From NCBI RefSeq assembly GCF_015555045.1, contig NZ_JADNJQ010000010.1, positions 1-64,000 of the forward strand: 64,000 bases of DNA. Direction: 5' to 3'. This stretch comes from Collinsella aerofaciens (GTDB lineage Bacteria > Actinomycetota > Coriobacteriia > Coriobacteriales > Coriobacteriaceae). Position numbers and translations under genes: made by a program. Below the pieces are notes generated by a model, which was given only the letters and a program-made list of their open reading frames with translations, did no database searches and was not told the origin of the DNA. Position 1 is the first letter of the stretch. Each line of letters opens with the position of its first letter. Below are positions 5,056 through 49,546 of the stretch, piece after piece.

Positions 5056-5739
5056 TTACTCGGCCTCCTTGGCAAGCGCGGCGGCGACAGCATCTTGCGA
5101 AATGTCGAGACCGTACGCGCGAATCTGCTCGACCGTCTTCTCGAAGACTTCCTCAACAGTCGCAGTGGCGTCGATGAGCTTTACGCGGTTTGGCTCCTCG
5201 GCAGCAATGGCGCAAAATCCCTGGTAAACACGCTCCTGGAATGTCATGCCTTTTGCCTCCATGCGATCTGCCGCGCCACGGGCTGCCATGCGTAGCGCCG
5301 CCTGCTCGGGCGTGATGTGGTAGACGAGCGTGAGCGCCGGGTGTGTTCCCGCGACGGCCAGGTTATTGGCATCGCACACTATCTGGCGATCGAGGCCGTC
5401 GGCAAATGCCTGGTAGCAGGTCGTGGAATCGTAGAAGCGGTCGCACAGGACCACCTTGCCGGCCGCGAGGGCGGGAGCTATGACCTCGTGCACCAACTGA
5501 GCGCGCGCCGCCTCGTAGAGCAGCAACTCGCAGGTGTCGCCCATCGCCGTATTGGCGGGGTCGAGCAGCAGAGCGCGGATCTTTTCGCTGATGGCGGTGC
5601 CGCCCGGCTCGCGCAGGCTCACAACCTGGTAGCCAGCGAGTTCGAGCGCGCGGGCAAGCAGACGCGCCTGCGTGGACTTGCCGGCACCATCGACGCCCTC
5701 GAGCGTGATAAAGCTATGTTGAGCGGGCTCAAAAGCCAT
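5056..5739 (-). CDS. tmk: Thymidylate kinase
   Basis: The 227-aa protein has the dTMP kinase signatures: P-loop EGVDGAGKSTQ at about residue 15, the LREPGGT motif, DRFYDST and a LID region rich in R. It phosphorylates dTMP to dTDP in the cytoplasm, the step joining de novo and salvage routes to dTTP. It is the first gene of the tmk-holB-ricT run, pairing nucleotide supply with replication, which is a common arrangement in Gram-positive bacteria. Length is normal for the family (about 210 aa). Confidence 0.97.
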   Translation of the reverse strand: MAFEPAQHSFITLEGVDGAGKSTQARLLARALELAGYQVVSLREPGGTAISEKIRALLLDPANTAMGDTCELLLYEAARAQLVHEVIAPALAAGKVVLCDRFYDSTTCYQAFADGLDRQIVCDANNLAVAGTHPALTLVYHITPEQAALRMAARGAADRMEAKGMTFQERVYQGFCAIAAEEPNRVKLIDATATVEEVFEKTVEQIRAYGLDISQDAVAAALAKEAE

Positions 5740-5828
5740 GAGCGCAGCCCCTTCCTATAAGGCGCGTAAATGCAGATATATCAACCAAGCCATGATACCC
5801 CAGGGGCAGGCGCGCCCCAAATCGGGCC

Positions 5829-5917
5829 TAGTCATTGGAGACGTTCTAAAGTTGCGGTGAAATAGGGACTGATTGAAGCTCTGAGACCGCCAAACAGTCC
5901 CTATTTCACCGCAACTT
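5829..5917. repeat. GGGAC-type palindromes: CTAG half element plus 23-bp inverted repeat
   Basis: A degenerate half copy of the CTAGTCATT element (5829-5850, containing GGAGACGTTCTAAA) is followed directly by a perfect 23-bp inverted repeat (5849-5871 and 5895-5917). The arm carries AGTTGCGGTGAAATAG and ends in GGGACTG; the loop is 23 nt. The same arm word recurs at 54090-54158. It lies in the spacer between tmk and the divergent zinc-ribbon gene. Confidence 0.85.
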
Positions 5918-5942
5918 ATGATGGGGAATTTTGGACGCTGGG

Positions 5943-5948
5943 TATAAT
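5943..5948 (+). promoter_or_regulatory. Candidate -10 box of the zinc-ribbon gene
   Basis: A perfect TATAAT lies 37 nt before the ATG at 5986. No good -35 hexamer is found at 16-18 nt spacing, so this is a partial promoter call. An AAAGGAG ribosome binding site follows at 5974-5980. Confidence 0.5.
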
Positions 5949-5985
5949 CGTCGTATTGATTTGAAATGTGGCGAAAGGAGTGGCA

Positions 5986-6969
5986 ATGTCTCGGTATTGC
6001 GCCTCGTGCGGCAAACTTCTTGCAGATGATGCCAAGTTCTGCACCTCATGCGGTGCACCCGTTGAGCAGACAACCGCAAGCAATGGCCAACCCGCGTTTG
6101 AGCAGACCGGCTTCCTCGATACGCCGCAAGCTAAGCCGGACGACCCCCTCGCCTATCGCCCCGACCCCGCCGCCAGCCCCGCAGCGGTCGAAACGACGCA
6201 GCGCATACCCGTCGCGGACACCCCGCCCCAACAGCAACCGGCATCTACGTACGCACCTGATTCACCACAGGCCCCCGCCGCCAAAAAGAGCGCTACCAGG
6301 GCGCTTGTCGCCGTTATCGTTGTGCTGTTGGCAATCATCATCGCCTTGGTCATCTTTTTTGTGATCAAGCCGTTCGACAACTCCGCTACGCAGACGACTG
6401 CCGAGGTAGCTAAGCTGCACCATGACGTCGACGACGATGATCTAAAGCCTCTCGGCAATCCCAACAGCCTGTACGACGATGATGACGATGACGACGAGGA
6501 TGGCGGCGAAGCAAGCCTCTCCGAACAGAACCTCTACCGTCGCCTGAGTGAATACTACGACCTGCTGGAAGATCTCGATAGCCAGGTCCGTGCCTGCGCA
6601 GAGACGTTTAATGGCAGCTATCTGGAAGAGGATCGTACCACCCGTCAAAATCTCGCTGACGTCGCCGAGCGCACGGAGGACACCATCGAGCAGTATTACG
6701 ACATTGTCGAGGACCTGGACGTCCCCACAAGCTCTAAGAACTACAGCTCGTGGAAGGACATCATTGCTCTGTACGACGACCTGGATCACCGCATCGATGC
6801 GATCTGCGATGCCTGGGAGATCAGCTTAAAGTACGCAAAGCCCGCGGACCATAAGAACGAGATCGTGGCGCCGCTGTCGCGCGACAACGTGGCGGGCACC
6901 AATGACAATAAGTACCGCCTAGACTTTGAGGAGCGCTATCCCGGCGCCAAACCCGTCGAAGTGAACTAA
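5986..6969 (+). CDS. Zinc-ribbon single-pass membrane protein
   Basis: The 327-aa product begins with a zinc ribbon (CASC at residues 5-8 and CTSC about eleven residues later), followed by a proline-rich linker, one membrane segment at about residues 105-128, an Asp-rich stretch with seven consecutive D, and a mainly helical acidic C-terminal region of about 170 residues. Proteins of this layout (zinc-ribbon domain, linker, TM) are common in Actinomycetota and Firmicutes, but their function is generally unknown. I chose ATG 5986 over an in-frame ATG at 5968 because AAAGGAG lies 5 nt before it. Topology is probably zinc ribbon inside and helical domain outside. The gene is monocistronic, with a shared terminator facing topA. 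Confidence 0.85.
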   Translation: MSRYCASCGKLLADDAKFCTSCGAPVEQTTASNGQPAFEQTGFLDTPQAKPDDPLAYRPDPAASPAAVETTQRIPVADTPPQQQPASTYAPDSPQAPAAKKSATRALVAVIVVLLAIIIALVIFFVIKPFDNSATQTTAEVAKLHHDVDDDDLKPLGNPNSLYDDDDDDDEDGGEASLSEQNLYRRLSEYYDLLEDLDSQVRACAETFNGSYLEEDRTTRQNLADVAERTEDTIEQYYDIVEDLDVPTSSKNYSSWKDIIALYDDLDHRIDAICDAWEISLKYAKPADHKNEIVAPLSRDNVAGTNDNKYRLDFEERYPGAKPVEVN

Positions 6970-6987
6970 CGCCTTGTCGTTTCCGAG

Positions 6988-7074
6988 CCGGCAGTTAGGG
7001 ACGTTCCTAAACTGCCGGCAGAAAAAGGAATGTCCCTAACTGCCGGCAGAAAAAGGAATGTCCCTAACTGCCGG
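6988..7074. repeat. GGGAC-type palindromic array, ACTGCCGG arms, three units
   Basis: Four copies of the word ACTGCCGG or its complement alternate with three cores: one GGGACGTTCCTAA and two identical AAAAAGGAATGTCCC cores in the opposite sense. The last two units form a perfect 28-bp tandem repeat (7013-7040 and 7041-7068). It lies downstream of the zinc-ribbon gene, just before a bidirectional terminator. Confidence 0.9.
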
Positions 7075-7076
7075 TC

Positions 7077-7116
7077 AAAAAACGAGCGAGGATCATGGGA
7101 CCCTCGCTCGTTTTTT
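7077..7116. terminator. Bidirectional terminator between zinc-ribbon gene and topA
   Basis: Stem ACGAGCGAGG/CCTCGCTCGT is flanked by A6 on the left and T6 on the right, giving intrinsic terminators for both converging genes. Confidence 0.9.
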
Positions 7117-7138
7117 GGGCAATGTTTCGACTGCGCCG

Positions 7139-9733
7139 TTACTTGTCGGCGGCTGCTTTCTTGGCAGTCGACTTCTTCGCGGTCGTCTTCTTGGCGGCAG
7201 TGGCTTTCTTAGCCGTCGTCTTCTTCGCAGCCGAGGTCTTCTTCGCCGTGCTCGCCTTGGTCGCAGTCTTGCGGCCGCGGGCGGGCTTCTTCTCCTTGGT
7301 CGGGCAGTCCATGTTGACGCAGATACGCCACGGGCCGCGCGCCGTGTTGACCACCACGATGGGGGCGCCGCACTCGGGACAGGTCTCGCCCGTCGCCTCG
7401 AGCTTGCCACGCGCCGGCAGCGGATAACTCACGCCGCAGTCGTCATAGTTGGTGCAGCGGATAAAGCGCTTGCCGCTCTTCTCGCTCTTGTGCGCGATCA
7501 GATCGCCATGGCGTCCGGCCTCGGCACACACCTTGCACTCGCCCACCTTAAGGTCGGGCTCGTAGTTGGTGGGGCATGTGGGGTTCACGCAAATCTCGAA
7601 GGCCTTCTGGCGGAACGGCTGGCACTTAATGCGCGGCGCACCGCACTCGGGGCACACGGCGGCATCGCCCTCGAGAGGGCTTACCTTGACGCCACTCGGC
7701 ACCGGATAGGTCACGTCGCAGTCGGGCCATCCCATGCAGCCGATAAAGCTGCCGCGGGTCTTGGCGCTCGTCTTCATAACCAGGTCCTTGCCGCACTTGG
7801 GACAGGCGCCCACGCGCGCATCGGCCGTGACGGCGTCGCTGATGGCGTCACCCAGCTCCTGCGTATGCTTGAGCAGCTCGTCGAGCACGCCGGCCAGCAG
7901 CGCACGCGAGTGCGTCACGACATGCTCTTCGGTGTCCTCGCCGCGCTCCACGCGGGTCATGTCGCCGTCGAGCTCACTGGTCATATCGGGGCTCGTGATG
8001 CGCGGGGCAAACTGCGACAGCGCATCGATAATGGCGATACCCAGCTGACTCGGCTCCACGGGATCGTTTTTGAGGTAACGCACGGCGTACAGGCGCTCGA
8101 TGATGCTCGCGCGCGTGGACTTGGTACCCAGGCCGCGCTTTTCCATCTCCTGCACGAGCTTGCCCTGGCTGTAGCGCGCGGGCGGCTCGGTCTGCTTGGC
8201 CTCGAGCTTAATGTCGAACACGTCGACCGTGTCGCCCTGCTCCAGCGGTGGCATCTGCTCGTCGCGCTTGAGTCCATACGGGTATGCCTCGCGGAAACCC
8301 GGGGTCACGAGCACGTCGCCCGAAGCCACGAACGGCTCGCCATTCACATCGAGCTCGAGCTTGGTGTTCTCGATGGTCGCAGGACCCATAAGCGTCGCCA
8401 GGAAGCGGCGGGCGATGAGGTCGTAGAGCTTGCGCTGGCCGCCATCGAGCGTGGACGGATCGCCCTCGCCCGTGGGATAGATAGGCGGGTGGTCGGTGGT
8501 CTCGACTTTGCCCCGCGTGGGCTTCATGGGGCCGGCGAGCACCTTTTTGCATACAGGTGCCAGCGCCGGATTGATCTTTGCCAGGTCGCTCACCACGGCG
8601 CCCAGGTCGAGCGTCGCGGGGTACACGGTGTTGTCGACACGCGGGTAGCTGATGAGGCCCGCCATGTAGAGGGACTCGGCGATGCGCATGGTACGCGCAG
8701 GCGAGATGCCCTCGGCTGCGGCGGCAGCCTGCAGCGAAGTGGTCGCAAACGGCGTGGGCGGCTGCTGCTTGCGCGAACGCTTGGTCACCGCGGCGACGGT
8801 TGCCGTCGCAACGCCGTCAACATGGCCGTACGCCGTCTCGGCAGCATCCTTGTCGGTAAAGCGTGCCGTCTTGTGCGCAATCTTAAAGCGGTCGCCCTCG
8901 GCAGCACCCTGCGCGGCGCCCATGCCACGGATCTGCCAATAGTCCTCGGGCACAAACGCCATGCGCTCGCGCTCGCGCTCGACCACCAGGGCAAGCGTCG
9001 GCGTCTGCACACGGCCGGCAGAGCGCACGTTACCAAAGCCGCCAAACTTGGCGAGCGTCAGGTAGCGCGTGAGCACCGCACCCCAAATGAGGTCGATGTG
9101 CTGGCGGCTCTCGCCGGCGTCGGCCAGATTCTGGTCGAGCGAGACGAGATTATCGAAGGCCTGCGTGATCTCGGCCTTGGTAAACGAAGAGTACTGGGCG
9201 CGGGCAACCGGCAAGTCCGGCGCCACCTCGCGCACCTTGTTGAGGGCGTCCGAACCGATTAGCTCGCCCTCGCGATCGAAGTCCGTGGCGATAATGACGC
9301 TGTCAGACTTTTTAGCGAGGTTCTTGAGCGAACGAATGAGTTCCTTCTCGGCCGGTAGCTTAATGACGGGCGCCCAGGTGAGGTAAGGCAGGCTCTCGAG
9401 TTTCCAGCCCTTGATTGAGATGCCATCGGCAAGAAACGGCTTGCGCTTGGTGTCGTAGGGCGGACGCGCCAGGCCATCGGGTATGTCGGCCGGCAGCATC
9501 TCGCCGTCCTCGGTGACCGAATACCAGCCCAGCTTTTTATCGAACAGCACGCTGTCGCAAAAATCGGGCGCTAGGATGTGACCGGCAAGGCCGATGGTCA
9601 CGCACTCCTCGCCCTTCCACTCAAAACGGTAGATGGCGATGTTGTACACCTTGTCCTTTTTGGGCTTGCCCGTGGACAGACGCTCGGCGATCTGACGCGC
9701 GGCGTCGTTTTTCTCGGCGATGATGAGCTTCAA
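7139..9733 (-). CDS. topA: Type IA DNA topoisomerase I
   Basis: The 864-aa enzyme has an N-terminal TOPRIM domain (residues about 1-160, with IIATDFDREGELIG), the RSAGRVQTPTLALV motif, and the active-site tyrosine segment GLISYPRVDNTVYP. The C-terminal third holds four zinc ribbons (CPKC, CPEC, CKVC and CPEC with matching downstream cysteine pairs) and a Lys/Ala-rich tail like histone H1. It relaxes negative supercoils through a 5'-phosphotyrosine link. The active-site context is SYPRVD rather than the usual TYMRTDS, a variant closer to Topo III or archaeal enzymes. The start is TTG at 9733 with AGGAG 6-8 nt upstream. It ends the tat-hyp-topA run; hypB lies 54 nt upstream. Confidence 0.94.
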   Translation of the reverse strand: MKLIIAEKNDAARQIAERLSTGKPKKDKVYNIAIYRFEWKGEECVTIGLAGHILAPDFCDSVLFDKKLGWYSVTEDGEMLPADIPDGLARPPYDTKRKPFLADGISIKGWKLESLPYLTWAPVIKLPAEKELIRSLKNLAKKSDSVIIATDFDREGELIGSDALNKVREVAPDLPVARAQYSSFTKAEITQAFDNLVSLDQNLADAGESRQHIDLIWGAVLTRYLTLAKFGGFGNVRSAGRVQTPTLALVVERERERMAFVPEDYWQIRGMGAAQGAAEGDRFKIAHKTARFTDKDAAETAYGHVDGVATATVAAVTKRSRKQQPPTPFATTSLQAAAAAEGISPARTMRIAESLYMAGLISYPRVDNTVYPATLDLGAVVSDLAKINPALAPVCKKVLAGPMKPTRGKVETTDHPPIYPTGEGDPSTLDGGQRKLYDLIARRFLATLMGPATIENTKLELDVNGEPFVASGDVLVTPGFREAYPYGLKRDEQMPPLEQGDTVDVFDIKLEAKQTEPPARYSQGKLVQEMEKRGLGTKSTRASIIERLYAVRYLKNDPVEPSQLGIAIIDALSQFAPRITSPDMTSELDGDMTRVERGEDTEEHVVTHSRALLAGVLDELLKHTQELGDAISDAVTADARVGACPKCGKDLVMKTSAKTRGSFIGCMGWPDCDVTYPVPSGVKVSPLEGDAAVCPECGAPRIKCQPFRQKAFEICVNPTCPTNYEPDLKVGECKVCAEAGRHGDLIAHKSEKSGKRFIRCTNYDDCGVSYPLPARGKLEATGETCPECGAPIVVVNTARGPWRICVNMDCPTKEKKPARGRKTATKASTAKKTSAAKKTTAKKATAAKKTTAKKSTAKKAAADK

Positions 9734-9787
9734 AAGAGGCTCCTATCTCGTATCTCTGCGGCTACGCCCGCCCGTATGGCGGCCGAC

Positions 9788-10471
9788 TTACGCCCTTGCT
9801 TGCTCAATCTGCCCGATGAGCCAATCGCACCAGGCATCCATGCCCTCGCCCTTGCGCGCGCTCACGGCAAACCGCGGCGCCTGTGGATTGAGGTCATCGA
9901 GTGTCTTAGTATACCTATCCATGTCAAAATCGAAAGCCGGAGCCACGTCAACCTTGTTGAGCAGCTGCGCGCCGGCGTGTTGGAAGATGCCCGGGTACTT
10001 GATGGGCTTGTCGTCGCCCTCGGGCACCGAGAGGATCATGATGGACAGGTTCTCGCCCAGGTCAAAGTCGACTGGGCAGACCAGGTTACCCACGTTTTCG
10101 ATAAAGATGACGTCGATGTTTTCCAGACCCACAGCCTGGTCGAAGGCGTCAACGGCCTCCATGATCATGTTGCCCTCGAGGTGGCACAGGCCGCCCGTGT
10201 TGATTTGGATGGCGGGCATGCCGGCTTCCTTCATGGTGATGGCGTCGACGTCCGAGGCGATATCGCCCTCGATGACGGCGCAGCGCAAGCCGGCCTTGTC
10301 GCGCAGGCGCTCGTTGGTGCCCAGAATCGTAGTGGTCTTGCCCGAGCCAGGGCTCGACAGCACATTGATCACATAGGTGCCTGTCTCTTTAAATCGCTGC
10401 CGCAGCTGATCTGCCAGGCGCTCATTGCGCGACAGAATTGGCGATGCGATATCAATCGTTTTCTCAGCCAT
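9788..10471 (-). CDS. hypB: Hydrogenase/urease nickel incorporation GTPase HypB
   Basis: The 227-aa SIMIBI GTPase has the P-loop SSPGSGKTT at about residue 40, the nickel/zinc site GGLCHLEGNM, NVGNLVCPVDFDLGE, and the guanine-specificity segment NKVDVAP. It hydrolyses GTP to drive nickel insertion into [NiFe] hydrogenase, with HypA. It lacks the N-terminal His-rich nickel store of some HypBs. An AAGGAG site precedes ATG 10471. It lies 55 nt after hypA in the same operon. No hydrogenase structural gene or HypC-F is in the window. Confidence 0.96.
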   Translation of the reverse strand: MAEKTIDIASPILSRNERLADQLRQRFKETGTYVINVLSSPGSGKTTTILGTNERLRDKAGLRCAVIEGDIASDVDAITMKEAGMPAIQINTGGLCHLEGNMIMEAVDAFDQAVGLENIDVIFIENVGNLVCPVDFDLGENLSIMILSVPEGDDKPIKYPGIFQHAGAQLLNKVDVAPAFDFDMDRYTKTLDDLNPQAPRFAVSARKGEGMDAWCDWLIGQIEQARA

Positions 10472-10526
10472 ACTTAGCGCTCCTTAATTTGGCCCCTTTA
10501 TACCCCATCACCAGATGGCTAGCGGG

Positions 10527-10883
10527 CTAATCGTCGGGGGTTTCGATTTCGATACTTGCGATGTCGAGCTCGCGGCCGTGCAGTAGGCGCACATTGGCGC
10601 CACCGCACTGGGGACAACGGCAATGGAAGCGGTCGTGCTCAAAGACCTCGCCGCAGTCCAGACACTCGCTTTGTGGATGGACTTCCTCTACGGCAAGCTC
10701 GCAGCCGCGCGTGAGCGGGTCCTCGTCGCGAAATGTCTCCCATGCAAAGTCGAGTGCCTCGCGCACGACCTCGGTCATATCCCCGATACGCAGCGTTACC
10801 AAAACGGCGCGCGAGGCCCCCGCCCCACGCGCCGCGCTAATCACTGTATCGAGTATGCCGTTGACAATGCCAACCTCGTGCAT
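10527..10883 (-). CDS. hypA: Nickel metallochaperone HypA
   Basis: The 118-aa protein starts MHEVGIV, giving the N-terminal His-Glu nickel site of the family, and has the structural zinc site CLDC...CPQC at about residues 73-94. It delivers nickel with HypB to the hydrogenase large subunit. Length is typical. It begins 6 nt after tatC with GAGGAG overlapping the tatC end, so translation is probably coupled to tatC. The link to Tat makes sense because uptake hydrogenases are folded in the cytoplasm and exported by Tat. Confidence 0.96.
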   Translation of the reverse strand: MHEVGIVNGILDTVISAARGAGASRAVLVTLRIGDMTEVVREALDFAWETFRDEDPLTRGCELAVEEVHPQSECLDCGEVFEHDRFHCRCPQCGGANVRLLHGRELDIASIEIETPDD

Positions 10884-44031: not shown

Positions 44032-45327
44032 CTAAGCCCCAAGCCTACCCATTAAGAAATCGACTGCGGAAACGATTTTGATGCCGTCAATGTCGGTCGG
44101 ATGGCTTCCCCGGCGAACAATGATGATCTTCTCGTAACCGCCGGTGATCTTCTCGAGCGACCTGAGCTCAAATGGACGCAATTCACGCTTGCGCGTCGCC
44201 TCCTCGTCAATCGACTCCGTGACCTGAATAAACTTACGATCCGAGCCGTCGCCGATCGCAACAAAGTCGATTTCAGCATCTCGAAGATGACCCGTGAAGA
44301 CCTGGTATCCGTCATAGACAAGGCGATTGTAAATGGCATTTTCGAGAACACGCCCACTGTCGCTGCCGCGATACCCATCCAAGAAGGCTCGAAGTCCCAG
44401 ATCCTCAATGTAGAACTTGCCGCCGGTCTTCAAAATATCCCGACCCTTAATATCAAATCGGCGCGCGTGCGAAAAGATATAGGTCTCCTCAAGGGCGGAC
44501 ACACAAGTGTCCACGACGCCGTGTGAGGATTTCGCCCCGTTCTCTGCCAGCGTTCCAACGATCTTATTAATTGATGTCGGGTTTGAAATGTTATCAGCCA
44601 AGTAGGAAGTGACGCGATCGAGCACACTCCTGCTCGTCACCGACCGTCTGCCCCGACGGGCTTCGCGAGCCAAAATATCGCGCCCGACGATTGTCTGGTA
44701 TGTGCTCCAGATATAGTCCCTCATTTCCTGCTCCGGCAGCTTTGAAGCAGCGAGGAACGGCAGGCCTCCAAACGTCAGATAGCGGTCAAGAAGATCGTCG
44801 AGTGCAACAATATCCTCCCGGCCAAAAACAGCAAGCCTATTCGTGACGTCAGTCGGACCAAGAAAGTCGACATATTCCGAAAAAGCGAGCGGATGCATCC
44901 GAATCTCGACATACCTGCCCGAGATTAAGGTCGCAATCTCTGACGAGAGGAGAAAAGCATTCGAACCCGTAACATATATATCGCAGTCCCGGTCGACACG
45001 AAGTGCGTTAATCGCCTTCTCCCATCCGGCAACCTCCTGAAGCTCGTCGAAGAAGAGATAGCACCTCTTGCCCGCAGGCATTAGGCCGTCGACGTGGCGG
45101 TAAAGCTCTCGCCAATCACGCACGCCCTCCAGCTCAAATGACTCCATCTTAAAGGTCAAAAGGCACTCGGATGGAACGCCGTTATCCTCCAAATGTTTCC
45201 GCATCATGTCCAGAAGTGTCGACTTGCCACAACGACGCATACCCGTTACGACCTTGATGACATCCGTGTCACGGAAGGCGATTAACTTCTCGAGATATCG
45301 ATTTCTGGGAACCATCCGTTTATCCAT
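44032..45327 (-). CDS. AAA ATPase with DUF4143 domain
   Basis: The 431-aa protein has an N-terminal AAA domain (P-loop TGMRRCGKSTLL at about residue 30, Walker B YLFFDELQEV) and a C-terminal DUF4143 nuclease-like domain (ENAIYNRLVYDG, EIDFVAIGDG, VTESID). These ATPases are frequent in anaerobes, often present as many paralogues and linked to mobile or defence regions; their job is unknown. The start is ATG 45327, with a weak ribosome site; ATG four codons later is possible. A tandem 40-bp repeat lies at its promoter. GC content is lower than neighbours. Confidence 0.88.
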   Translation of the reverse strand: MDKRMVPRNRYLEKLIAFRDTDVIKVVTGMRRCGKSTLLDMMRKHLEDNGVPSECLLTFKMESFELEGVRDWRELYRHVDGLMPAGKRCYLFFDELQEVAGWEKAINALRVDRDCDIYVTGSNAFLLSSEIATLISGRYVEIRMHPLAFSEYVDFLGPTDVTNRLAVFGREDIVALDDLLDRYLTFGGLPFLAASKLPEQEMRDYIWSTYQTIVGRDILAREARRGRRSVTSRSVLDRVTSYLADNISNPTSINKIVGTLAENGAKSSHGVVDTCVSALEETYIFSHARRFDIKGRDILKTGGKFYIEDLGLRAFLDGYRGSDSGRVLENAIYNRLVYDGYQVFTGHLRDAEIDFVAIGDGSDRKFIQVTESIDEEATRKRELRPFELRSLEKITGGYEKIIIVRRGSHPTDIDGIKIVSAVDFLMGRLGA

Positions 45328-45708
45328 CGCTCGCCCCAATCTGCAAGTTTTTCTCACAGAATGACAAGAACTTGCGAATTTTGCAAGTTTTTCTCACGTA
45401 GCGACAAGAACCTGCATATCCGTCCGTGGCCATTTGCAGTCGGATTCCGGCGAGGCCATGACAAGCAGCTTGCCACATGGCCGACACGGAGCCATGGCAT
45501 GCGCGGAATCTTGGGGGCAGGACTTCTCCCAGCAACCTATAAGACAAAAACACATACACATAGATAGAGAGAAGCCCGGCAAGACACGGCGCCAAGGCCG
45601 CAGCCACAAACTTGAGTAGCCGATAGTCTAAAAATCACATGCGCTCAAAACACGAACGATCGATCTGTTATCCTGGCGCCAACATAGTCTTTCGAAAGGT
45701 TTGCCGGG
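45328..45708. other. 381-nt divergent spacer
   Basis: No gene is supported. The part next to the ATPase gene holds a tandem palindromic repeat (45342-45420); the rest is mixed and contains no clear promoter for the helicase gene. Confidence 0.5.
45342..45420. repeat. Tandem 40-bp palindromic repeat upstream of the DUF4143 ATPase
   Basis: Two units (45342-45380 and 45382-45420) share TGCAAGTTTTTCTCAC and GACAAGAAC-TGC. Each is an imperfect inverted repeat (GCAAGTTTTT and AAGAACTTGC). The position 15-90 nt before the start suggests an operator. Confidence 0.8.
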
Positions 45709-48585
45709 ATGACTACGCAGCGACAGATTGATATTGAATTCGACTCGCTTACACGCGAGAACGATTCACCCAAGCTCATCGCCAACTCGAAGGCGGCAGG
45801 CGGAACACTACTATCCGTTATCAAGGAGCAGCTCTCAGCCTGCGGCTCTTTTGACTTTTGCGTAGCGTTTGTTGCAGACGGCGGCCTTCAAATCCTGGTC
45901 GAGACGTTCCAGGAGCTCAAGCAGCGTGGCATTAAGGGCAGGCTGCTCACGTCCACCTATCTCAACTTCAACTCACCCGATGTCTTTCGCAAGCTCCTGG
46001 AATACGACAACATGGAAGTTCGCGTATTCCAGGGTAATTTGCATGCCAAGGGATACATTTTTGATAAGGGCGAAACCAGCACGGTCATCGTCGGCAGCTC
46101 CAACATGACGCAGACCGCTCTCACCTGCAATAAAGAATGGAATGTGCTGTACCAGACTGTCGAGAACAGCCGCCTACTCAACGAACTGAGGGGCGAGTTC
46201 AATTCGTTGTGGAACGATACCTCAACCGTTTTGCTTTCCCAAGACTGGATTGAGAACTATGCCGCATATCGATCGGCACGTCCGCCAAAGCCCAAATCGA
46301 AACCGACATTCAAATCTGCGGAAATGCCGGCGCAGAATGACCTCGAAGAAATCAAGCCCAATAAAATGCAGCAGCGCGCCCTTGAGGCGCTCGGTGTAAT
46401 CCACCGCAAGGGCGAGACCCGCGCCCTGTTGGTCTCGGCAACCGGCACCGGCAAGACCTTCCTTTCGGCGTTCGACGTGCTCGCAACTAAACCCCGGCGC
46501 GTCCTCTTTCTTGCGCACCGCCGGCGCATTATCGACGCCTCCCGTGCAAGCTACGAACGCCTCTTAGGTAGTAACTATACGTTCGACACCTATCAAACTG
46601 GCAAGAATATAAGCAATGCTACCTGCGTGTTTGCCATGTGTTCTTCGGTCGCCAAACATCTGAGCGATTTCCGTCCCGATGAGTTCGACTACATCGTCAT
46701 CGACGAGGCCCACCGCACGGGATCCCAGGGTTACCAATCCATCATGTCGCACTTCACGCCTCGGTTTTATCTGGGCATGACCGCTACGCCTAATCGCACC
46801 GACGGCTACGACGTCTTTGCCCTTTTCAATCACGTCATCGCGTTCCAGATCACACTGCAGGACGCTTTGGCCGAGGAGATGCTAGCCCCCTTTCATTATT
46901 TTGGCATTCACGATCTGGAGATCGACGACGAAACGGTCGAAGATACCGCCTTGTTCGGACGCCTAACATCCGACGAGCGCGTGCGTCATATCACCGAGAA
47001 GATCGAAGAATATAGCGTCACCAAAAGCAACCGCAGGGGCTTAATTTTCTGCAATCGAAACGCCGAGGCCAAAGAACTGTCACACAAATTCAACGCTTTC
47101 GGATATCGAACGACTGCGATTAGCGGTCAAGATCCCGATGAAGTCCGCGATGCCGCTATCAGCCGGCTTGAAGCCGGCGAGCTCGAGTACATCTTCTCGG
47201 TCGATATCATGAACGAAGGCGTCGACATCCCCTCGCTCAATCAGATCATCATGCTTCGACGCACCGACTCCGCAATCATCTTTATTCAACAGCTCGGACG
47301 AGGTTTGCGCCTGAATGATGGCAAGGAATACGCTCTGGTACTCGACTTTATTGGCAATTACCAGAGCAACTTCCTGGTGCCCATCGCACTTTCGGGTGAC
47401 AAGACATACAACAAAGATCGCCTGCGTCGTCTCGTCCAAGAGGGCGATTCGGCGATACCCGGATGCTCGACCGTGAGCTTCGATCGTATTTCTGAGGCAC
47501 GCATTTACAAGGCCATCGACGGCGGCGATTTCACCTCCGTCAGGTTTTTGAAAAACGAATATCTCGACTTGCGCCAAAAACTCGGCAAGATTCCCTCGCT
47601 GCTCGAATTTGATCGTAACGGCTCCATCGATCCACTGCTTATCTTCAAGAATAGCGGCCTGGGGTCCTACCACGCATTTCTTTCCAAATACGAGCCGGAC
47701 TACACGGTTCAATTTACCTCTGATCAGACCAAGATTCTCAAATTTATTTCTCAAAAACTTGCCGCGGGCAAGCGATTCGAAGACCTCTATTTGCTTCAAA
47801 CGCTCGTCGAAGCCGGACACGAGGGCTACTGGCATATGCGCGAGGCTGCGCTTAGGAACTACCGCGCACAGCTTAAGGACAGCGCCGTTAGGTCGGCAAT
47901 CGCAGTCCTTAAGGGCGACTTTGCCACTCCTAAGGATTTCGTTTCCCTGCTTATTGACGATGGATGCGGACCTCGTCTGACCGAAGCGTTTGCGACCGCC
48001 CTGCGCAACGCAGAGTTCAAGCGTCAGATTCTCGAGGTGCTGGATTTTGGTATTGAGCGCAACCGACTCGACTATGCCGAGACGTACGAAAACACAAATT
48101 TCGTTCTCAACGCCAAGTACACGTACGAGGAGGTTTGCCGTCTGATGAACTGGCAAAAGAACATCAACGGCCAAAACCTTGGCGGATACTTCTACGATGA
48201 GAAGACCAATACATTCCCCGTGTTTATTAACTATGACAAGGCTCCCGACATTAGTGAGTCAATTCAGTATGAAGACCGCTTTGTTTCGCCGAGCAAGCTC
48301 ATCGCAATCTCGAAGGGCAACCGCACGCTCAACTCCCCCGAGATTTTGCGACTGCAGGCATGGCCGGGAAACGGCCTGAAGACGTATTTGTTTATGCGAA
48401 AGAACAAGGACGATAAGGGCGGTAAGGAGTTCTATTTCTTAGGCGAAATGCATCCGACCGGCGAGTTCGAAGCTATTAAAACTAAGAGCGGCGACAACGC
48501 CGTCGAAATCGAATATGAGCTCAATGCACCCGTGAGGCAAGACATTTACGAGTTTATGCTCAGCGATTTGAGCGAAGCCGAGTAA
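45709..48585 (+). CDS. PLD-nuclease/DEAD-box helicase/DUF3427 fusion
   Basis: The 958-aa protein begins with a phospholipase-D-type domain (NLHAKGYIFDKG at about 109 and VIVGSSNMTQTAL at about 128). It continues with a superfamily 2 helicase (P-loop LLVSATGTGKTF at about 244, YIVIDEAHRTG at about 329, MTATPNRTDGYD, motif VI QLGRGLRLNDG at about 528). The last part is DUF3427 (NLGGYFYDEKTNTFPVFINY). The combination looks like an anti-invader or repair nuclease-helicase. It is convergent with a NUDIX gene and divergent from a DUF4143 ATPase. An AAAGG site lies about 9 nt before ATG. Function beyond the domains is inference. Confidence 0.93.
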   Translation: MTTQRQIDIEFDSLTRENDSPKLIANSKAAGGTLLSVIKEQLSACGSFDFCVAFVADGGLQILVETFQELKQRGIKGRLLTSTYLNFNSPDVFRKLLEYDNMEVRVFQGNLHAKGYIFDKGETSTVIVGSSNMTQTALTCNKEWNVLYQTVENSRLLNELRGEFNSLWNDTSTVLLSQDWIENYAAYRSARPPKPKSKPTFKSAEMPAQNDLEEIKPNKMQQRALEALGVIHRKGETRALLVSATGTGKTFLSAFDVLATKPRRVLFLAHRRRIIDASRASYERLLGSNYTFDTYQTGKNISNATCVFAMCSSVAKHLSDFRPDEFDYIVIDEAHRTGSQGYQSIMSHFTPRFYLGMTATPNRTDGYDVFALFNHVIAFQITLQDALAEEMLAPFHYFGIHDLEIDDETVEDTALFGRLTSDERVRHITEKIEEYSVTKSNRRGLIFCNRNAEAKELSHKFNAFGYRTTAISGQDPDEVRDAAISRLEAGELEYIFSVDIMNEGVDIPSLNQIIMLRRTDSAIIFIQQLGRGLRLNDGKEYALVLDFIGNYQSNFLVPIALSGDKTYNKDRLRRLVQEGDSAIPGCSTVSFDRISEARIYKAIDGGDFTSVRFLKNEYLDLRQKLGKIPSLLEFDRNGSIDPLLIFKNSGLGSYHAFLSKYEPDYTVQFTSDQTKILKFISQKLAAGKRFEDLYLLQTLVEAGHEGYWHMREAALRNYRAQLKDSAVRSAIAVLKGDFATPKDFVSLLIDDGCGPRLTEAFATALRNAEFKRQILEVLDFGIERNRLDYAETYENTNFVLNAKYTYEEVCRLMNWQKNINGQNLGGYFYDEKTNTFPVFINYDKAPDISESIQYEDRFVSPSKLIAISKGNRTLNSPEILRLQAWPGNGLKTYLFMRKNKDDKGGKEFYFLGEMHPTGEFEAIKTKSGDNAVEIEYELNAPVRQDIYEFMLSDLSEAE

Positions 48586-48624
48586 CAAATAGGAGCGGGC
48601 CGCCATGTGACGCCCGCCCCTTTC

Positions 48625-49020
48625 TTACTTAAGCCCGAGTTTCTTTTCGAGCTCCCTAACGACTTTAACGTCTGCCGGAAGCCAATCGACATCCCACAGG
48701 TTATTGGTATCAAGCCATTTCATATCCTCGTGAGCGTGCTCTTTGAACTCCCCCGAAAGGATGTTAGCTAGATAGCACTGCATCGACAGGTGAAACGTCG
48801 CGTAATCATGCTCGACCGTGCAAAGATAGTCGAGGTTACCGATCGTGACCTCGAGCTCTTCTTGAATCTCGCGCACGATTGCCTGCTCGCCGGTCTCGCC
48901 CGGCTCGAGCTTGCCACCCGGAAATTCCCAGCCGTCTTTAAACTCACCATAGCCGCGCTGGCAGCTCAGGATTTTTCCGTCCTTCTGAATAATCGCTGCT
49001 GCAACATTGATTGATTTCAT
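48625..49020 (-). CDS. NUDIX hydrolase, MutT-like
   Basis: The 131-aa protein has the NUDIX box GGKLEPGETGEQ followed by AIVREIQEELEV (GX5EX7REUXEEXGU, with the late G replaced by E). The start MKSINVAAAIIQKDGKIL and the SCQRGYGEFKDGWEFPGG context are typical of 8-oxo-dGTP diphosphatases of the CTP/dNTP pyrophosphatase branch. It ends 40 nt from the helicase stop, facing it. Confidence 0.92.
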   Translation of the reverse strand: MKSINVAAAIIQKDGKILSCQRGYGEFKDGWEFPGGKLEPGETGEQAIVREIQEELEVTIGNLDYLCTVEHDYATFHLSMQCYLANILSGEFKEHAHEDMKWLDTNNLWDVDWLPADVKVVRELEKKLGLK

Positions 49021-49546
49021 AACTAGTTATCACCTCTCCAGTTGAGCCCAACCAGTATAGGCGATCGGCCGCCCGCCATGTCCCAGTCGCCTGAAAACCG
49101 CCTGCTCGACCAACCCTTGACGCCGACTTGCTACCGGCTCACCATCCCTCGCTATCGAGGTCTAATACTTTTCCGCGAAGTGAACGTCTGTTTTAGGACC
49201 CCTGAAGCATCCACATTTTTCGTCGGCAAGATCGCAGGATTCCAGTATCGAAACCGCAGGAAACGATGTCCTTAAAGTGTCGATGCTTCGGGGGTCCGTT
49301 TTAGCTCGTTCACTTCTCGGAAAAGTATTAGACCTCGCTGCTAGCTACCCAGAAGGACACCTCTTCCTTCCCCACTGCCACCCAAAAACTCATCCAACAT
49401 TAATCTTGGCTCAAGAATCGCTTAATCTATAACCTGCACTATAGAGTTCGACCAAGGGCGGGGCGGCGCAACGCAGACCGCCGAACGCAACGCTCGCGCC
49501 CGGGCAGATCGCCCGGCGTCGCGCCCATCGAACGAAAGGACAGGTC
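49021..49546. other. 526-nt spacer with long foldback
   Basis: No gene. The central 181 bp form a long inverted repeat (separate entry). The last 100 nt before the DUF4342 gene are ordinary leader sequence. Confidence 0.6.
49156..49336. repeat. Long foldback element
   Basis: The ends are perfect over 20 nt (CGAGGTCTAATACTTTTCCG and its complement), then GAAGTGAACG, GGACCCC and GAAGCATC also pair, for arms of about 60 nt with 49-64 nt between. In the middle of the arms GTTTTAG occurs on the same strand in both arms, so it cannot pair and would form a symmetric internal loop. No similar copy exists in the window. Confidence 0.85.

Follow-up and report, generated by a model that had tools for sequence, protein, structure and literature searches.

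A SauUSI-type restriction enzyme gene and its linked NUDIX gene in Collinsella aerofaciens: a candidate two-gene type IV restriction module

Gene content of the locus

Within the 64,000-nucleotide stretch of Collinsella aerofaciens DNA analyzed here (hereafter "the window"; contig NZ_JADNJQ010000010.1, positions 1 to 64,000), a gene encoding a 958-aa nuclease-helicase protein is flanked by a gene for a DUF4143 ATPase and by a convergent NUDIX gene (Table 1). A preliminary description of this region had listed these three genes along with a 40-bp-spaced repeat and a foldback, and all of these features are indeed present. The inverted repeat between the two convergent genes may be a terminator shared by both.

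The listed GTG start of the DUF4143 gene (45357) falls within the repeat, and an ATG at 45327 is more likely to be the true start. The repeat consists of two 34-nt units (45342-45375 and 45382-45415) that are 85% identical, and two occurrences of its 15-mer core were found across the window, vs 0.08 expected. In relatives that carry the DUF4143 gene, the dyads (GCAAGTTTTT...AAAAACTTGC) are closer to perfect than in the window, and we consider the repeat a probable operator of the DUF4143 gene. The foldback is an approximately 180-bp near-palindrome, either a MITE-like element or a structured RNA; complementarity is 97% between its outer arms and 88% between its inner arms (z = -11.4 for the RNA fold). 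Five copies were found in the genome, i.e., the one in the window, three on contig C11, and one on contig C19. At one related locus (L012), most of the corresponding copy is deleted, and since the apparent empty site keeps 18 nt of the element, this reflects a deletion there and is not proof of insertion. An Rfam search returned tRNA only. Elsewhere in the window, a 28-bp unit is present in 2.6 tandem copies at 7010-7082.

Table 1 Features of the locus, with positions in the window
Feature	Position	Strand	Basis
AAA_14/DUF4143 ATPase gene (PADLOC PDC-S01), neighbor	44032..45357	-	Pfam, PADLOC
Pair of 34-bp dyads with 40-bp spacing, immediately 5' of likely DUF4143 start	45342..45415	.	Sequence and relatives
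SauUSI-type type IV restriction enzyme gene (958 aa; predicted activity)	45709..48585	+	Pfam, phmmer, PADLOC, residue mapping
HxK catalytic motif of PLD nuclease (H112, K114 = SauUSI H119, K121)	46042..46050	+	Mapped residues
Walker A SATGTGKT (residues 243-250)	46435..46458	+	Invariant in homologue alignment
DEAH box (residues 332-335)	46702-46713	+	Mapped residues
DUF3427 region (residues 679-949)	47743..48555	+	Pfam and residue mapping
Inverted repeat GCGGGC...GCCCGC between convergent genes	48595..48617	.	Seen in sequence
NUDIX partner gene, NudG/MutT2-like (131 aa)	48625..49020	-	Pfam NUDIX 2e-17; genomic linkage; AlphaFold2/Foldseek
Asp117 codon, at E. coli MutT Asn119 position	48670..48672	-	Alignment of linked NUDIX
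Nudix box (residues 36-58), GKLEPGETGEQAIVREIQEELEV	48847..48915	-	Sequence
Foldback, outside system	49156..49337	.	RNA fold and genome copies

A predicted 5-methylcytosine-dependent restriction enzyme

The 958-aa protein includes PLDc_2, ResIII, Helicase_C, and DUF3427 domains, in this order, as expected from the preliminary description in which a PLD nuclease was joined to a helicase. Its residues 17-950 align with residues 25-951 of SauUSI (PDB 7clg; phmmer E 3e-186), and the 953-position PADLOC model mREase_IV matches it with an E-value of 4e-190. The structure of SauUSI includes a dimeric PLD nuclease bearing HxK motifs, a DNA-translocating SF2 ATPase, a coupler, and an SRA-fold target recognition domain (TRD) modeled as flipping 5-methylcytosine (5mC; PMC7913695). 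The same single-chain layout (PLD nuclease, SF2 ATPase/translocase, coupler, and SRA-like TRD) is found over the whole length of the window protein, its DUF3427 region corresponding to the coupler and the SRA-like TRD. The histidine and the lysine of the HxK motif are each kept in 85/86 homologues, and four of the five 5mC pocket residues of SauUSI (Y831, F841, I842, D858, W868) are retained as Y829, F839, I840, and D856. The fifth, W868, is replaced by A866; because alanine is found at this position in 72/86 homologues, the replacement is the family norm, and we rejected its reading as a quirk of this protein. Based on the full-length match to SauUSI and the conserved catalytic and pocket residues, we classify the protein as a SauUSI-type type IV restriction enzyme with a predicted 5mC-dependent activity. 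The anti-phage or genome-protection role that the preliminary description had given to the gene grouping thus holds insofar as the locus is a predicted defense locus, while the SauUSI-type identity of its nuclease had been missed.

No cognate methyltransferase was found among the nine proteins scanned around the locus. A C5-methyltransferase gene split into two reading frames is present elsewhere in the same genome (C11:30451-31562; L145), surrounded by small prophage-like genes. The host is a Collinsella near C. aerofaciens, and the loci closest to the window (L065 and L066) encode enzymes 97% identical to that of the window. Across 65 genomes of the window's family, the distribution of the SauUSI-type gene is patchy, with 11 intact copies, one shortened by an internal deletion, and one decayed. 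The NUDIX gene is intact next to a broken nuclease gene in one of these genomes (G019), and in another (G036) a single deletion removed the nuclease C-terminus and the NUDIX gene together.

Linkage of NUDIX genes to SauUSI-type enzymes

We then clustered all ORFs neighboring 80 SauUSI-type loci from GTDB genomes and 6 plasmid loci. NUDIX was by far the commonest neighbor cluster, and its density within 1.5 kb of SauUSI-type genes was 86 times that of farther flanks. When three loci with contigs ending too early (L096, L114, L139) were set aside, a NUDIX gene was detected within 2 kb of the enzyme gene in 79 of the 83 informative loci, i.e., the association seen in the window is conserved in other genomes. 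Four informative loci lack one (L102, L122, L123, and L155) and count against the functional model proposed below. At the Bacteroidales locus L122, a C5-methyltransferase gene (5694-7079) stands instead near the enzyme gene (8001-10841).

Of the 79 NUDIX genes, 48 lie downstream and 21 upstream of the enzyme gene on its strand, and 10 are convergent with it; at least eight changes between these arrangements were required on the enzyme tree. This pairing has therefore survived repeated rearrangement, and plain inheritance of gene order is not the explanation. A NUDIX neighbor was found at 0/20 loci of the sister DUF3427-helicase subfamily from Actinomycetota, at 0/20 McrC (McrBC) loci, and at 0/20 HsdR loci. 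The contrast between SauUSI-type loci and controls yielded Fisher p values of 1e-17 and 4e-28, which treat loci as independent when they are not, so that the rearrangement count is the sounder argument. The NUDIX tree contains too few columns to date recruitments, and its supported branches separate three subtypes. At one locus (L092), a second, generic downstream NUDIX was automatically picked as the partner, and the upstream NUDIX is the likely partner.

The same pairing involves SauUSI itself. The SauUSI match in a Staphylococcus aureus plasmid record is immediately preceded, on its own strand, by a NUDIX gene whose product is identical over 124/124 residues to PDB 5x1x, annotated as "Mutator mutT protein".

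Other neighbors were less frequent. A DCTPP1/MazG-like pyrophosphohydrolase was the joint-second commonest (8/86 loci); in five loci (L086, L107, L127, L136, L153) its gene directly adjoins a large helicase-type gene near the SauUSI-type locus, and may thus belong to a separate module. A protein family of about 370-395 aa recurs beside SauUSI-type enzymes in six Clostridia loci (L088, L098, L107, L124, L127, L136), paired in four of them with a SAM-dependent methyltransferase-like gene. At L227, a Pfam Schlafen group 3 helicase is encoded next to a NUDIX gene.

Likely substrate of the NUDIX hydrolase

The window NUDIX includes a canonical Nudix box (GX5EX7REUXEE), the catalytic R/E/E residues of which are invariant in 75 linked NUDIX proteins. 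Asn119 of E. coli MutT is the residue reading 8-oxoguanine; at this position, all 74 linked NUDIX proteins that extend far enough to be scored (out of 75) encode Asp, as do NudG (2rrk), 3gwy, and 5x1x. Since Asp is also found there in the uncharacterized "MutT" proteins 3r03 and 3hhj, this residue is not diagnostic by itself. The closest PDB sequence to the window NUDIX is 3gwy, a CTP pyrophosphohydrolase. Among NCBIfam models, the NudG-type PRK10546 scored 90.1 bits, below its 156-bit cut-off, for which reason the window NUDIX is not filed as a NudG orthologue; MutT TIGR00586 scored 91.2 bits, also below cut-off (97.9 bits), and Asp117 is found in place of Asn.

The AlphaFold2 model of the window NUDIX (pLDDT 93.7) had MutT2 in complex with 5mdCTP (5zro) as its best Foldseek match. 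MutT2, RppH-like, NudG, and MutT structures were nearly tied when compared to this model (VIA Z 20.6 to 18.4), so that the fold leaves the substrate undecided. The PADLOC model PDC-S07 matches the window NUDIX with an E-value of 2e-48, although this model is not specific since it also matches E. coli MutT and NudG. For comparison, the kcat/Km on 5-methyl-dCTP was reported as 1.3e6 M-1 s-1 for NudG (PMC5158307) and 2.8e3 M-1 s-1 for MutT (PMC3744803). Taken together, the linkage to SauUSI-type loci and the Asp signature suggest that the window NUDIX is probably a pyrophosphohydrolase of 5-methyl-dCTP or another modified dCTP, in line with the action on modified nucleotides suggested in the preliminary description. 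The near-tie between folds, the sub-cut-off NCBIfam scores, and the Asp of 3r03 and 3hhj all count against a NudG-type substrate.

NUDIX paralogues associated with methylcytosine

Vsr repairs T:G mismatches arising from 5mC deamination. On contig C5 of the same genome (about 6778-7767; L245:5001-5990), a paralogue of the window NUDIX carries a fused Vsr domain (Pfam PF03852, E 4.5e-17). This NUDIX-Vsr fusion was detected in 21/24 sampled loci of the window's family and in 21/38 sampled NUDIX loci overall; the loci carrying it include L238, L243, L399-L412, and L414-L417. Judging by titles and abstracts, none of the papers found to mention both domains seems to describe this fusion. Overlap between a C5-methyltransferase gene and a gene of this NUDIX family was seen in two further cases (L253:4989-8237 and L234:3715-5384); at L253, the pair is followed by a gene for a MutH/Sau3AI-type nuclease. 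A single NUDIX family thus occurs beside 5mC-repair, 5mC-cutting, and 5mC-making enzymes. A general NUDIX-C5-methyltransferase linkage was rejected, as it is limited to L253 and L234, and no NUDIX gene was found within 1.5 kb of a C5-methyltransferase gene at the 30 top loci (0/30). Related NUDIX genes are also found free-standing among housekeeping genes, and both this and the 0/30 result count against the functional model proposed below.

A possible self-protection role and its alternatives

The homology, the pocket residues, a linkage conserved through repeated rearrangement, the Asp signature, and a Vsr-fused paralogue are all observed, and from them we infer both the substrate of the NUDIX and its purpose in self-protection. 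Specifically, we propose, with a probability of roughly 55%, that the two genes form a type IV module in which the NUDIX hydrolyzes 5-methyl-dCTP so that the nuclease spares host DNA. By homology to SauUSI, for which these steps have been shown, the SRA-like domain would recognize 5-methyl- or 5-hydroxymethylcytosine in incoming DNA, and ATP-driven translocation would be followed by DNA shredding by the dimeric PLD nuclease. Shredded methylated DNA would release 5-methyl-dCMP, which could be rephosphorylated and enter host DNA, where the resulting 5mC would be cut by the same nuclease. The NUDIX would interrupt this loop by cleaving 5-methyl-dCTP, or another 5-modified dCTP, down to its monophosphate, a role that may be likened to the self-protection provided by the methyltransferase of an ordinary restriction-modification system. 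DNA polymerase incorporates 5-methyl-dCTP about as readily as dCTP, and the breakdown of methylated DNA has been named as the likely source of this nucleotide (PMC10742078). No dNK-family deoxynucleoside kinase was found above cut-off in 197 Coriobacteriia genomes, which does not support external 5-methyl-deoxycytidine taken up via such kinases as a source in this class; with dNK salvage unlikely here, a monophosphate would have to be the form in which the modified nucleotide first appears, and this counts against the model. The G019 genome, with its intact NUDIX and broken nuclease genes, fits with the NUDIX breaking the loop.

The main evidence against this self-protection reading is that McrBC, which is also 5mC-dependent, is found without a NUDIX neighbor. 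5mC-dependent cutting does not generally demand a NUDIX, and this control lends no support to the idea that enzymes of this kind are usually accompanied by one. The NUDIX-Vsr fusion encoded in the same genome might also do the same job as the window NUDIX, which counts against the model. A broader formulation, in which SauUSI-type restriction is two-component, with an immunity factor acting on the nucleotide pool and not on DNA, and in which the same NUDIX family performs 5mC hygiene elsewhere (Vsr fusion, C5-methyltransferase operons), is plausible but tentative.

An offensive role for the NUDIX appears unlikely. Beside a nuclease cutting modified phage DNA, it would form a second layer by destroying modified dNTPs needed by phages, e.g., 5-hydroxymethyl-dCTP, which would be compatible with the same linkage and modified-pyrimidine signature, and a 2025 review suggests that defenses could sense the conversion of the nucleotide pool to 5hmdCTP (PMC12707154). 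However, the depletion of modified dNTPs would favor phage DNA without modifications, on which the nuclease does not act, and the two activities would then be partly opposed; a housekeeping function is also suggested by the paralogues that are fused to Vsr or free-standing. Somewhat less likely still, the NUDIX could be a general sanitizer of oxidized nucleotides (MutT-like, acting on 8-oxo-dGTP) or a generic repair gene without special ties to methylcytosine. The similar NCBIfam MutT and NudG-type scores (91 and 90 bits, both below cut-off), the match of PDC-S07 to E. coli MutT, the nearly tied folds, and the existence of free-standing paralogues would all be consistent with such a function, whereas the specificity of the linkage, which none of the sampled McrBC, HsdR, or sister DUF3427 loci shows, the Asp replacing the 8-oxoG-binding Asn in every scorable linked NUDIX, and the fusion of a paralogue to Vsr argue against it.

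A direct regulation of the nuclease by the NUDIX, through binding or a local change in ATP or dATP instead of pool cleaning, is very improbable: SauUSI requires ATP or dATP and the two genes are often adjacent on the same strand, but the enzyme is paired with varied NUDIX subtypes, in some cases convergently, i.e., co-translation is not conserved, and no NUDIX-nuclease fusion was found among the 86 SauUSI-type loci. Finally, the single defense island initially suggested, with the DUF4143 ATPase as a functional part alongside the odd spacers, is hardly credible despite the physical adjacency of the three genes and the status of DUF4143 ATPases as PADLOC candidate PDC-S01, since L065, with an enzyme/NUDIX region 94% identical to the window, has neither the DUF4143 gene nor the repeat at this site, DUF4143-type genes are near only 3/86 SauUSI-type loci, and the foldback belongs to a dispersed family, which led us to reject the ATPase as a part of the system and the foldback as a regulatory part of the locus.

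Relation to known systems

The pairing itself is already known in passing, and its role is unexplained in the Streptococcus reports: MutT homologues are drawn beside SauUSI homologues in Streptococcus in a figure legend (PMC7641849), and a 2026 study of S. suis found PDC-S07 and type IV enzymes co-localized in 23/23 cases, with no explanation given (PMC12813430). Our search of the open-access literature returned no paper naming both type IV restriction and a Nudix hydrolase. Within this literature, our analysis adds the breadth of the association, its persistence through rearrangement, the identity of the S. aureus partner, the Asp signature, and the link to Vsr. Published descriptions portray type IV enzymes as having no protective partner. 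Should SauUSI-type enzymes indeed travel with a pool sanitizer, this would suggest a new form of self/non-self protection, provide the S. aureus "MutT" of PDB 5x1x with a function, and place PDC-S07, a PADLOC candidate, within a known system.

Among known systems, SauUSI shares with the window enzyme its domain order, HxK, Walker A, and DEAH motifs, most of the 5mC pocket, and, in S. aureus, a NUDIX neighbor. The two enzymes differ in sequence (about 36% identity), in the position of the NUDIX gene, which is convergent and downstream in the window and upstream in S. aureus, and in the alanine found here at W868. McrBC is likewise an ATP-dependent restriction system dependent on modified cytosine, but is built from other proteins, with no NUDIX neighbor in the 20 loci. 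For the NUDIX, E. coli NudG/Orf135 (2rrk) and Mycobacterium smegmatis MutT2 (5zro), both of which act on 5-methyl-dCTP, share the Nudix box and the fold, and NudG also has Asp at the Asn119 position; the window NUDIX differs in scoring below the NCBIfam NudG-type cut-off, in adjoining a restriction enzyme gene, and in that its substrate is a predicted one. The Vsr endonuclease is fused to a paralogue of the window NUDIX in Collinsella and its family, but lies outside the window, as a separate gene on another contig. In PADLOC, the models mREase_IV and PDC-S07 match the nuclease and the NUDIX of the window, respectively, and whereas PDC-S07 is treated there as a separate single-gene system, we read it here as the probable partner of the enzyme.
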